Below, piece by piece: positions 1 to 22,915 of a stretch of 64,000 bases of DNA. The notes under the pieces were generated by a model. It did no database searches, was not told where the DNA came from, and saw only the letters and a list, made by a program, of their open reading frames with translations. The stretch comes from Lachnospiraceae bacterium (lineage in GTDB: Bacteria; Bacillota; Clostridia; Lachnospirales; Lachnospiraceae): assembly GCA_902363835.1 (NCBI GenBank), contig CABJBM010000013.1:1-64000 (forward strand), given 5' to 3'. Within the stretch, counting starts at the first letter, position 1, and each line of letters starts with the position of its first letter. The position numbers were made by a program, and so were the translations under genes.

Positions 1-47
1 ATTCAGTTGTCAAAGTACACAATAAATTTAATTAAGTTGACGACATT

Positions 48-144
48 GGGCATTCGCCCTATGAAATAGGCCATGAGAAAGTTTTCTTATGTGCAAGCAC
101 AACGAAAATTTTCTCCTGTCCTATTTCTCACTGCTCATTGCTTT
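48..144 (-). repeat. Structured hairpin repeat, copy A (3' end of cobQ)
   Basis: Read on the minus strand, this roughly 97-base stretch matches copy B at 21093-21190 (plus strand) along its length. Both start with AAAGCAATGAGCAGTG, fold into a long stem capped by GTTGTGC/GCACATAA, and end with ATAGGGCGAATG followed by CCC or TCC. The outer stem here is GAAATAGG pairing with CCTATTTC. The repeat overlaps the last codons and stop of cobQ, so it would be the 3' untranslated end of the cobQ transcript and may act as its terminator or stabiliser. Family and function are not known to me. Confidence 0.75.
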
Positions 145-1659
145 CGTGAACATTATCCCATAAATCCTTTCCATGTCAAGGCTGTTCCTTAATTGGGCGG
201 CAAGGTGGTTATATTGTTTTTCCTTGTATTCCTGATAGTTGAAACTGTCATCCAGTTCCATGGATATTCCCTTCTTTTTTGCAAGGGACTTTACAATGGT
301 CATTGCAATCCCTTCCTTATCAAAGAAGCCATGGATATAAGTGCCGTATACATTTCCCCTTTGGCAGCCGTCCATTTTTGCCAGGTGGGAGTTTGACTGG
401 GTTTCTATGACATAGGCAAGGGGCGGCACGGATCTGGTGGTTTCTCCCATGTGGATTTCATAGCCTTCCACCTCCATGCCTGACAGCTCCTCAAATATTC
501 CTCCCACAGCAGTACAGGAGCCGGACACTCTTGTCCTGGTCTTTTCCTTTCCAAATACCGTGCGGACCGGCAAAAGTCCCATGCCCCGTACTGATGGGAC
601 GGCCGTTTCTGATTCCATCTGGAAGGGATCGGATATGGTTTCTCCAAGCATCTGGAAACCGCCGCAGATTCCAAATATGGGGATTTCCCTTGCTTTCAGC
701 TTTAAGATGGCCGCCTCAAGGCCGCTTTCTCTCAGCCATAGTAGGTCTTCTACAGTATTTTTGCTTCCAGGTAAAATGACCATATCCGGATTTCCCAGAT
801 CAGATACACGGTCCACATACCGCAGGCATACCCTGGGGAAGCTTAAAAAGACCTGGAAATCCGTGAAATTGGAGATTCTGGGCATCCGGATGACAGCGAT
901 CTCCACTGCAGTCCGGTCTGTTCTGGCCGTTCCTGCCAGATGATTTCCAAGGCTGTCCTCATCTTCTAAATCCACATCCATGTAGGGAACCACACCTGCC
1001 ACGGGGATGGAAAGCCGCTCTTCAATCATGTCCAGCCCCGGTTCCAGAATGGTTTTATCTCCGCGGAATTTATTGACGATCAAACCTTTTATCAAGGCTT
1101 TTTCATCAGGTTCCAAAAGCATTACGGTTCCATAAAGCTGCGCAAACACGCCCCCCCGGTCAATGTCCCCCACCAAGAGTACGGGAGCCTCCGCCATTTT
1201 TGCCATTCCCATGTTTACAATATCATCCTGCTTTAAATTGATCTCCGCCGGGCTTCCGGCTCCTTCTATGACGATGATATCGTATTCCTCTGAAAGCTTA
1301 TGGAATGCCCGTTCAATCTCCGGCACCAGTGTTTTCTTGTATGCAAAATACTCTCTGGCAGGCATATTTCCAATGGATATGCCGTTTACAATTACCTGGG
1401 ACCCAATGTCATTGGTGGGCTTTAAGAGGATGGGATTCATGGCTGCCTCCGGCTTTACTCCCGCCGCTTCCGCCTGGACCGCCTGGGCCCTTCCCATTTC
1501 CAGCCCCTCTTCCGTAATATAGGAATTCAAGGCCATATTCTGGGATTTGAAAGGGGCCACCCGGTAGCCATCCTGCTTGAAGATCCGGCATAATCCGGCC
1601 GCAATCAGACTTTTTCCTGCATTGGACATGGTCCCCTGTATCATGATCGTCTTTGCCAT
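121..1659 (-). CDS. cobQ: Cobyric acid synthase (CobQ/CbiP)
   Basis: Glutamine-dependent amidase that amidates side chains b, d, e and g of adenosyl-cobyrinic acid a,c-diamide to give cobyric acid; cytoplasmic. At 512 residues it has the family length. It has an N-terminal DRAP/BioD-like ATP-binding domain with GTMSNAGKS at residues 9-17, and a C-terminal class I glutamine amidotransferase domain with [11 protein letters not shown] (nucleophile Cys332) and EIHMG (His403). It is the last gene of the cobS, cobU-like, cbiB, cobD, cobQ run, 4 bases after cobD. Its stop codon lies inside hairpin repeat A. The family assignment is secure. Confidence 0.97.
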
Positions 1660-20934: not shown

Positions 20935-21079
20935 AAGAAACCTCCTTTAAACTCCTGTTGTTTTAGTTCGCATGATCATTATAGAGGATTCCAACCCGAT
21001 ATGCTTGCCATATTTTCTGATCTTGTTGCCATTTCTTCTGATCTGTCAAAGAGAGTTCTTTTTTATGGGGGGTGTGTGG

Positions 21080-21085
21080 TATAAT
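21080..21085 (+). promoter_or_regulatory. Extended -10 promoter of the plus-strand kinase gene
   Basis: TGGTATAAT is an extended -10 sequence on the plus strand with no good -35 at the usual distance. A transcript from here would carry hairpin repeat B and the neighbouring palindrome as a leader of about 190 bases before the kinase gene at 21284. Confidence 0.45.
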
Positions 21086-21092
21086 ATCCACA

Positions 21093-21190
21093 AAAGCAAT
21101 GAGCAGTGCGAAACAGGGTACGGAAAGTTTTTCGTTGTGCCCCGCACATAAGAAAAACTTTCCATACCCTGTTTCATAGGGCGAATGTCC
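21093..21190 (+). repeat. Structured hairpin repeat, copy B (leader of kinase gene)
   Basis: Plus-strand copy of the element also found at 48-144 (minus strand). The stem is nearly perfect: GAAACAGGGTA pairs with TACCCTGTTTC, GGAAAG with CTTTCC and TTTTTC with GAAAAA, capped by TTGTGC/GCACA. Compared with copy A, at least two pairs change on both sides (C-G to T-A in the outer stem, G-C to A-T in the inner stem), while loop and flanks stay the same. That pattern points to selection on structure. Confidence 0.8.
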
Positions 21191-21192
21191 GT

Positions 21193-21223
21193 GAGCTGGC
21201 AAAACCTCCGGTTTTGCCAGCTC
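21193..21223. repeat. Perfect 14-bp palindrome beside repeat B
   Basis: GAGCTGGCAAAACC and GGTTTTGCCAGCTC flank a 3-base centre. Outside them GTCCG pairs with CGGAC and GGCG with CGCC, so the fold extends from about 21180 to 21240 and continues from the tail of repeat B. It could be the second domain of the same RNA element or a bidirectional terminator; no T-tract follows on the plus strand. The rest of the 20935-21283 gap holds the divergent promoters. Confidence 0.7.
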
Positions 21224-21283
21224 CACTGCGGACTTACGCCATAACAACCACAAGAACAACCACAAGAAAGGCCCCCCTCCATC

Positions 21284-22915
21284 ATGATGAAAAAATCAGA
21301 CTTCCACCTCTCTTCCCCCAAGATGAACACGCAGCTAAAGCTAATGCTGATTCTGGAAACCATCGTGCTCCTAGGCGCCTACATCATTATCACAAGCACG
21401 TACCAAAACCTGGAACAGCATAAAACCGAAGAAGCCGTAAGACAGCTAAACGGCACCCTGATGACCAATATGGAGCATACCGCCAATGCCCTGGACACGC
21501 TTACCAAGTCCCTGATCAGCAGTGAAGCCTACGAGGTATCCCCTTCTCTCTGGAGCTATTTAAAATCCCAGGCCAGGCAAAAAGAAAATCCAGGAAGGCT
21601 GGATGCACTATTCATAGAAAAATACTACCAGCTGACCATCTTATTTCCCCAGCTAAACTGCCTTTTCCTGTTTCAGCCACAAGGAGATTTAATGTGCTAC
21701 AAATACAACGATCAGAAATACCACCTGCTAAAAGAATTGCCTGAAAACGACTGGGTCACCACACTGAAAGACAACCGGGGAGTCTTATCCTTTATCACCC
21801 AGAAAGAAGCCGAGGATTTAGGATACCAGGCAAACAACAGACTGCTGTTTGCCGGACGGGTTTTAAACAATATCAGTGCCTCCAAACCGGTAGCCATTAT
21901 CATGGCCGGCATTAACATCTCGGATCTCCAGTATGATTTCAAATGCAGAAAATTGTTTGATTCCCAGCAGTTTGCCTGCTTTGATGCCAACAAAAAGCTG
22001 TTGTTTTCTTCCGATGGGTTTGAAGACATTACCTGGGAGGAAATATACTCCCCAAAAGCCCAATCTCCCTATGTATATTACCTGACTGCCAATAACAATC
22101 ATACCTTATACAGCGTCATTGCCACGGATAAAAGGAACATCACCCAGTCCTCCTCCTTCCTTCGCCCTGTTTTTCTCATAATCATCCTGGTTATTTTCCT
22201 GTCCAATCTTCTGCTGTCCTGGATGATTACCAAAAAGGTCATAAAATCCTACGGCGAAATGACGAAACAGGTATACCAAAAAAGCCTGGCTGAAAAGGAT
22301 TTGAATCTGCAGATGCTGCGGTCCCAGATCAACCCCCATTTTTTATACAATACCCTGGACCGGATGCGGATGGCCTCTCTCAATGCCAGCTACCCCCATT
22401 TGGCAACCATGTGTGAGCTGCTGGCAAAAATTCTCCGTTTCGGAGTCTCCGATACCAATCAGCTGGTAACCGTGGAAGAAGAAAATGCTCATTTAGAAGA
22501 ATACATACGTTTAATCAAACTAAGCTACGCCAGTGTATCCATCAGCACCAGCCTGGATCCCGGAATTCTGTCCTGCCGGATGCTTAAGCTGCTGCTGCAG
22601 CCTTTGGTAGAAAACAGCATTAATCACGGTATTATTGATGATGCCTCCAATGGTTCCATTCAAATATGGGGATATGAAAAAGACAGCAATCTGATTTTTA
22701 CGGTTTCCGACAATGGAAACGGCATGGATGAAGAACACCTGGCTCTGCTGCGGGATTATCTGGAGGATAAGAATGCCGCATTTCACAGCATCGGTTTAAA
22801 AAATATCAAAAAAAGAATTCAACTTTATTATGGAAAAGAGTATGATTTATACATTGACAGCCGGCTTCACCAGGGCACAACCGTAACAATTAAAATTCCG
22901 GTCACAAAAGAATAA
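21284..22915 (+). CDS. Sensor histidine kinase, YesM type
   Basis: Membrane sensor of 543 residues on the plus strand. TM1 is about 19-37, an extracellular domain spans 38-293, and TM2 about 294-314; the linker to the kinase core is short with no clear HAMP domain. QINPHFLYN holds His352; QPLVENSINHGI and SDNGNGMDEEH are the N and G1 boxes. It is followed 32 bases later by its regulator and is divergent from the binding-protein gene at 20934, which it probably controls. The first of two adjacent ATG codons was used; the ribosome site there is weak. Confidence 0.92.
   Translation: MMKKSDFHLSSPKMNTQLKLMLILETIVLLGAYIIITSTYQNLEQHKTEEAVRQLNGTLMTNMEHTANALDTLTKSLISSEAYEVSPSLWSYLKSQARQKENPGRLDALFIEKYYQLTILFPQLNCLFLFQPQGDLMCYKYNDQKYHLLKELPENDWVTTLKDNRGVLSFITQKEAEDLGYQANNRLLFAGRVLNNISASKPVAIIMAGINISDLQYDFKCRKLFDSQQFACFDANKKLLFSSDGFEDITWEEIYSPKAQSPYVYYLTANNNHTLYSVIATDKRNITQSSSFLRPVFLIIILVIFLSNLLLSWMITKKVIKSYGEMTKQVYQKSLAEKDLNLQMLRSQINPHFLYNTLDRMRMASLNASYPHLATMCELLAKILRFGVSDTNQLVTVEEENAHLEEYIRLIKLSYASVSISTSLDPGILSCRMLKLLLQPLVENSINHGIIDDASNGSIQIWGYEKDSNLIFTVSDNGNGMDEEHLALLRDYLEDKNAAFHSIGLKNIKKRIQLYYGKEYDLYIDSRLHQGTTVTIKIPVTKE

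Follow-up and report, generated by a model that had tools for sequence, protein, structure and literature searches.

Clostridiales-1 (Rfam RF01699), which Weinberg et al. (2010) scored as a probable RNA that is probably neither cis-regulatory nor a switch (PMC2864571), is the described family closest to the repeat reported here. BOX elements of Streptococcus pneumoniae are dispersed, transcribed, and strongly folded; they contain tandem inner units and likely affect cotranscribed genes, according to the account in PMC3049150. In Bacillus subtilis, long downstream mRNA can be stabilized when a hairpin forms or a protein binds at, or close to, the 5′ end (PMC3997798).

We analyzed a stretch of 64,000 nucleotides from a Lachnospiraceae bacterium (referred to here as the window). 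An initial annotation had noted a 97-base repeat in it, at 48 to 144 (minus strand; copy A) and 21093 to 21190 (plus strand; copy B), and both copies were confirmed at these places. The repeat proved to be the 5′ two-thirds of a folded element of ~147 nucleotides (nt). Like BOX, the element is a dispersed, strongly folded repeat with tandem inner units; BOX differs in being modular (boxA/boxB/boxC) with terminal inverted repeats that are compared to an insertion sequence, and the likeness is one of description, not of sequence (PMC3049150). With the aprE-leader-type 5′ stabilizers of Bacilli (PMC3997798), the element shares a stable structure at the message 5′ end; those stabilizers are not a repeat family, unlike the element, for which we infer a stabilizing role. 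The element was not named in the titles and abstract openings of the literature searched, was not seen in the portion of PMC8632094 covered, and might be unnamed among the 3,161 candidates of PMC8040213.

Fold of the element and its two copies in the window

An alignment of 20 copies yielded a fold of four helices. P1 (GCAGTG/CACTGC) closes the other three: P2, a long hairpin with a variable stem and a fixed tip; P3, a mini-hairpin with the sequence GGGCGAAnGCCC; and P4, a second variable hairpin 3′ of P3. The 97-base repeat is therefore real but too short, since P4 and the 3′ strand of P1 also belong to the element, and P1 encloses the long stem.

Copy B is complete (21089 to 21235, plus strand; model positions 1 to 146; 159.1 bits). 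Its P1 strands are GCAGTG at 21103 to 21108 (supported by alignment, covariation, and fold) and CACTGC at 21224 to 21229 (alignment and covariation). Between them lie P2 (21110 to 21175; fold, alignment, and covariation), with a variable stem and the conserved tip CGTTGTGC..GCACATAAG; P3, GGGCGAATGTCC (21179 to 21190; alignment and covariation); and P4 (about 21194 to 21222; alignment, covariation, and fold), which had been overlooked. A possible pseudoknot, for which the support is mixed, would pair CAC (21089 to 21091) with GTG (21191 to 21193). Copy A (148 to 48, minus strand) is truncated (102.4 bits; model match at 13 to 148). It retains the P1 5′ strand (134 to 129), P2 (127 to 63), and P3 (59 to 48), without P4 or the P1 3′ strand; it breaks off after GGGCGAATGCCC, and the letters beyond window position 48 cannot be aligned to the element. 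The orthologue of copy A (L014/L031) in G001, the nearest genome among those compared, is whole. Past the break, window positions 1 to 47 (minus strand) may belong to the margin of an insertion that extends outside the window.

The 5′ tag, conserved tip, mini-hairpin, and compensatory stem changes described in the initial annotation were all visible in the aligned pair. Compared with 200 shuffles, none of which was as good, the single-copy folds had z scores of −4.6 (copy A) and −7.7 (copy B), and the segment from 21092 to 21235 of copy B reached −12.2. By eye, no T-run stood directly behind the fold in copy B or in 20 G001 copies, which bears out the earlier view that this is not a simple terminator; an intrinsic terminator or attenuator is rejected on the same ground. 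A kink-turn at the base of P1 did not fit the spacing.

A −10-like hexamer stands 3 nt upstream of both window copies. For copy B it is TATAAT (21080 to 21085, plus strand), within the extended form TGTGGTATAAT (21075 to 21085); the gene behind is that of a sensor histidine kinase (21284 to 22915, plus strand; His_kinase and HATPase_c domains). Neither a terminator nor an evident arm masking the Shine-Dalgarno (SD) sequence was seen by eye in copy B. For copy A, the promoter-like sequence (179 to 152, minus strand) consists of TTGACA (179 to 174), a 16-nt spacer, and GATAAT (157 to 152). Because these hexamers precede it, copy A seems to own a promoter. Copy B had been correctly placed in a leader, and the −10-like hexamers of both copies are to be added to the initial description. 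The last codons and the stop (123 to 121) of cobQ, encoding cobyric acid synthase (121 to 1659, minus strand), lie inside the first bases of copy A.

Covariation and strand-specific signal

In the G001 genome, GCAATGAGCAGTG matched exactly at 16 sites and with at most two mismatches at 215, versus 28 for the reversed control pattern. Among the 30 best of these loci were 20 copies of the long element and 2 without the hairpins. The first alignment comprised 19 G001 copies and copy B, with copy A and L013, which has an enlarged P4, excluded. Two-sided changes were present in 32 of its 51 pairs (at least one copy each), and P3 read GGGCGAATGCCC. A model (R1) was built from these 20 copies. A large alignment was then composed of 84 R1 matches (E ≤ 2e-15) from 81 sources, a hand-picked, mostly nonredundant subset of 177 loci; L097 and matches weaker than 2e-15, including antisense echoes, were left out. 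With three pseudoknot pairs added, 93.9% of the cells were paired (71.1% when shuffled; 37 to 47% when slid), and 49 of 54 pairs had two-sided changes. None of 500 shuffles, which leave the relatedness of copies in place, attained any of five measures.

A second set consisted of 93 copies in 100 of at least 120 loci from a genome scan for the P3 core (20 loci were not modelled). Because the model used here (R2) derives from the first set, the second set is independent in finding, not in alignment. Its pairing was 89.1% (65.5% shuffled), with two-sided changes in 44 of 51 pairs, and again none of 500 shuffles did as well. P1 covaries even though its strands are separated by about 115 nt that hold three hairpins. 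On this comparative evidence, the fold of four helices is under strong pair-preserving selection. Covariation in two sets, together with the genome searches, supports the initial annotation in calling this a structured, RNA-like repeat family: the searches returned many copies with covarying pairs, where two copies alone, or pairs that do not covary, would have spoken against it.

In most scanned copies, P4 is unpaired at columns 170/272 and 172/271 of the second-set alignment (A5; 69 and 71 copies not paired). Read by eye, these are G-A/A-G mismatches, which are absent from the G001 copies and possibly represent a tandem G-A motif.

On the sense strand, G·U outnumbered A·C by 40 to 13 in 28 copies (one per genus) and by 102 to 60 overall; the second set gave 61 versus 40 (P = 0.046). 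This excess favors a sense strand that acts single-stranded, and a C-to-T bias could mimic it.

Regarding the CAC/GTG pseudoknot, pairing was 83.6% overall (75.7% shuffled), and two-sided cells numbered 16 (4.6 shuffled), each unmatched by any of 500 shuffles; the number of pairs with a two-sided change was attained by 177 of 500. Copies without their own −10 hexamer paired in 47 of 71 cases (34.8 shuffled; maximum, 42 in 2,000), and promoter-bearing copies paired in 66 of 85 (66.0 shuffled) without covariation, a weak split since the pattern for the second-set (A5) scan had a fixed GTG. The lack of signal in promoter copies fits CAC falling just upstream of the expected transcription start. 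Where the 5′ side was not CAC, promoter-less copies paired at about the shuffled level (14 of 37; 12.3 shuffled); a count on a different selection gave 21 of 56 for such copies (10.9 shuffled; 16 of 137 rows left out). We regard the pseudoknot as possible only.

Distribution, age, and probable relation to Clostridiales-1

The R1 model detected the element in all 25 genomes of the genus, seven of which were high-copy (32 to 51 rows, counting antisense echoes of the palindrome); the others had 1 to 6. G001 alone carries 23 copies of at least 117 bits; the two unrelated sites of the initial annotation thus exist and understate the family. Beyond the genus, R1 matched 123 of 299 family genomes (filtered search; 10 candidates scored per genome). 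R2 matched 60 of 295 order genomes, including 32 from beyond the family, and 21 of 291 class genomes, including 11 from beyond the order, some of the latter matches being weak (E up to 9.8e-4); E values of both models are rough. An Aquibacillus candidate (L222) gave no model match. Copy B had no blastn match in plasmid and phage collections, and eight viral contigs with the P3 core yielded two weak partial model matches (24.5 and 18.3 bits) and no full element. A phage or plasmid carrier is rejected on these results.

Within the genus, orthologous positions formed 18 clusters of 64 copies (cluster L063/L263 is one copy counted twice). Among copy pairs, which are nonindependent, 371 double changes kept pairing and 26 broke it, and 191 one-sided changes kept the pair and 237 broke it. 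Four positions, with both flanks homologous, are common to other genera (behind groEL; before a lipoprotein gene; L091/L052; behind a PucR-like gene), two of them with a downstream flank identity of only 34 to 35%. Two more, the leaders of hddC-like and trpS genes (named by eye), are homologous on one flank. By eye, the stem letters at the intergenus positions have diverged widely, with the smallest difference at the PucR-like gene. The sharing could possibly also reflect independent insertions into a preferred site.

The kinase gene of copy B was found in 3 of the 25 genus genomes: G009, which has the element, and G006 and G021, in which the promoter is the same and the element is missing. 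At this occupied/empty pair no clean target duplication was seen, and the difference fits gain or loss alike. The term "mobile" in the initial annotation found little backing: there is this one presence/absence difference, but many positions are common to several species. The P2 hairpins of copy A and L009 are near-identical, though the copies are nonorthologous.

Several variant copies were observed. At one gene position (L064, L065, L066, and L039), P4 is a near-perfect hairpin in every form yet varies widely from species to species, except that L065 and L066 are alike. Tandem units of the 3′ part (CACTGCGGAYT-like; about 20 nt) follow the element in L005, L011, L015, L017, L027, and L065, and L035 has three P2-P4 units at 1260 to 1646 with a period of about 126 bp. 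Two G001 leaders (L007 and L019) have CACGAAAGCAATGAGCAGT shortly before the gene start, around locus position 1501, without the hairpins; L007 resembles a deletion between TGCG repeats at the fold base.

No Rfam model matched at the gathering level in the window or in L070 to L084. The initial annotation's statement that the family is undescribed holds to that extent, and is to be qualified by a sub-threshold relation to Clostridiales-1. Three permissive scans covered 8, 8, and 6 loci, with three loci scanned twice, and the models that fell on the element were those of RF01699 and of microRNA hairpins alone; RF01699 did not appear in the first of these scans, of eight G001 loci. It matched across the whole model, below the 48-bit cutoff, in L188 (44.4 bits), L197 (36.3), L112 (35.8), and L092 (35.7). 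Because microRNA models gave 33 to 37 bits on the same kind of copies, the weaker of these scores mean little. Within the genus, 6 of 25 genomes had an RF01699 match at E ≤ 0.1, and the highest-scoring one (46.4 bits) fell on the copy behind groEL; no genome attained the gathering score of 48 bits. Corynebacterium glutamicum, one of 14 control genomes, matched at E ≤ 0.1 as well. Conversely, 6 of 27 RF01699 loci were matched by R2 at E ≤ 0.1, the best of them with 40.3 bits (E = 7e-9). RF01699 members over the cutoff occurred in 7 of 291 class genomes.

The two families have in common their taxa, a closing helix P1, and a long variable hairpin. The tip of that hairpin contains GCTTGC (GCUUGC) in 58 of 93 element copies and 17 of 23 RF01699 copies (2.2 and 0.6 when shuffled). 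Part of each family also has AGCGAAGCGGA with at most one mismatch: 29 of 93 element copies and 5 of 23 RF01699 copies (0.2 and 0 when shuffled). They differ completely in the middle, where Clostridiales-1 has a large hairpin (AUGAG..CGGA..CGAAU) and the element, in the copies read, has its 12-nt P3 of the GGGCGAAnGCCC type. Flanking genes of RF01699 (23 of 30 loci) were (+,+) in 19 cases versus (−,−) in 1, and 17 of 20 copies with an upstream sense gene start −25 to +3 nt from its stop. RF01699 copies (L337 to L363) were likewise seen to start at the stop codon of the preceding gene, where more than one frame is often closed (TGATGATA). We conclude that the element and Clostridiales-1 are probably relatives, as separate families.

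Placement at gene boundaries and its possible meaning

As read from the scanned sequences, the element lies mostly on the sense strand, with its 5′ end in most copies 3 nt after TATAAT and elsewhere abutting the end of the upstream gene. The gene caller behind the flank counts was simple, and some starts will be wrong. In 124 distinct copies (mostly one genus, orthologues included), flanking genes were (+,+) in 85 cases versus (−,−) in 6, and the downstream gene was in sense in 108 of 119. In 92 copies from the P3-core scan (one duplicate removed), the counts were 47 versus 1 and 72 of 74. TATAAT with an exact 3-nt gap preceded 56 of these 92, and at least five of its six letters preceded 65. 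A logo of the latter displays an extended −10 (TGTGG) and a weak −35 signal. T at −2 was present in all 65, and G at element position 4 was present in 64; copies without the hexamer had T at −2 in 56 of 71. By the geometry of sigma-70-type promoters, with TATAAT standing 3 nt upstream, transcription is expected to start at about element base 4.

Of the 57 scan copies with an upstream sense gene, 14 begin −33 to +9 nt from its stop, and the first bases of the element often supply that stop (cobQ in the window; a dnaB-like gene in L055). Distant copies begin right after tRNA-Thr (L183, L188, L191, and L197) or 5S rRNA (L196), and further copies begin after T-runs by eye (L108, L113, and L115). 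Regarding MITE features, P1 measures only 6 to 7 bp in Lachnospiraceae copies, and by eye the terminal inverted repeat extends further in some distant copies, to about 21 bp in L191. The genes behind copies, named by eye from protein starts, are what we take to be trpS, hisB-like, hrcA-like, rsmD-like, and kinase genes, with no evident common pathway.

We put at roughly 0.5 the probability that the element is an old, dispersed, cis-acting structured leader or boundary RNA bordering transcription and translation units, which stabilizes or insulates the message behind it. It would form a folded 5′-terminal or intercistronic block acting on that mRNA, most likely with a protein bound to the fixed tip of P2 and to P3. 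The downstream message might be shielded from 5′-end-dependent decay (RNase J/RppH type) or, alternatively, insulated from events in the upstream cistron. The fold sits at the transcript start or after a stop, whatever the gene, which suggests a general effect on the message; as the genes share no evident pathway, an mRNA-level role is favored over a single-metabolite switch. Against this reading, the conserved letters of the P2 tip and P3 exceed what a plain roadblock needs, one-sided pair-breaking changes are common at orthologous positions, DNA-level processes could keep long hairpins, and a role for the downstream message is less clear behind tRNA-Thr and 5S genes.

The main rival is a tolerated parasite at such sites, i.e., a mobile, non-autonomous repeat (a MITE or a BOX/ERIC-like sequence) that uses its fold to be copied, as single-stranded DNA or RNA, and for which any host function is incidental; strand and stop-codon siting would then reflect selection tolerance or a preference of the insertion machinery. 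The dispersal of copies (23 strong ones in G001), a copy number of 1 to over 20 within one genus, the near-identical P2 of nonorthologous copies, the presence/absence difference at the kinase gene, the tandem 3′ units, and the longer terminal inverted repeats of some distant copies all accord with it. We nevertheless consider it somewhat unlikely, given the strand bias relative to genes, the four positions kept between genera, the sole occupied/empty pair, at which no clear target duplication was seen, and the results from plasmid, phage, and viral sequences; two high-copy genomes also had no Y1 transposase match. REP sequences and BIMEs are extragenic palindromes often found beside stop codons, and the element resembles them in this. 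A move by a RAYT transposase, as suggested in the initial annotation, is largely refuted and scarcely credible, because no Y1_Tnp (PF01797) match was obtained in G001 or G006, which are both high-copy, and the 20 of 25 genus genomes that do have one include low-copy genomes. As described in PMC2817692, REP/BIME are moreover short hairpins tied to RAYT genes, whereas the element has four helices and no RAYT link.

A regulated leader, riboswitch-like or under protein control and switching one global regulon, would explain the 5′ leader position, the complex fold with its conserved tip and P3, and the leaders kept at orthologous genes (trpS, hddC-like, and lipoprotein; named by eye). It appears doubtful, since the genes are unrelated, copies also follow stop codons and tRNA or 5S ends, copy B has neither a terminator nor an evident SD-masking arm by eye, and the related Clostridiales-1 is scored as probably neither cis-regulatory nor a switch in the account of PMC2864571. 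The P2 and P4 stems turn over fast, and a DNA artefact might be invoked in which palindromes are kept perfect by template switching during replication with no selection at the RNA level. Long hairpins can indeed self-correct in this way. We judge this very improbable in view of the P1 covariation across about 115 nt with three hairpins between, the strand-specific G·U excess (to which C-to-T strand bias could add), and the narrow spacing from −10 hexamers and stops.

Overall, the reading in the initial annotation is partly supported, and a leader or boundary RNA is our preferred explanation of the element. A bolder version, which we consider a long shot, is that the element and Clostridiales-1 form one clan of boundary RNAs that block 5′-to-3′ exonucleases or recruit a dedicated protein, and so, across whole genomes of Clostridia, delimit operon segments and the 5′ ends of mRNAs, having spread by copying. 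The 5′ end would be held near P1, perhaps through the pseudoknot crossing P1; the odds are lowered because the pseudoknot is unsupported in promoter copies and partly supported elsewhere. If true, such a clan would be a bacterial counterpart of viral exoribonuclease-resistant RNAs. The element itself is widespread in abundant gut Lachnospiraceae, yet lies below every Rfam threshold. It provides a link to an RNA family that was listed without a function in 2010, through a shared context rule (sense strand, at a transcript start or gene end), and because this rule is consistent, the function of both RNAs would be directly testable.
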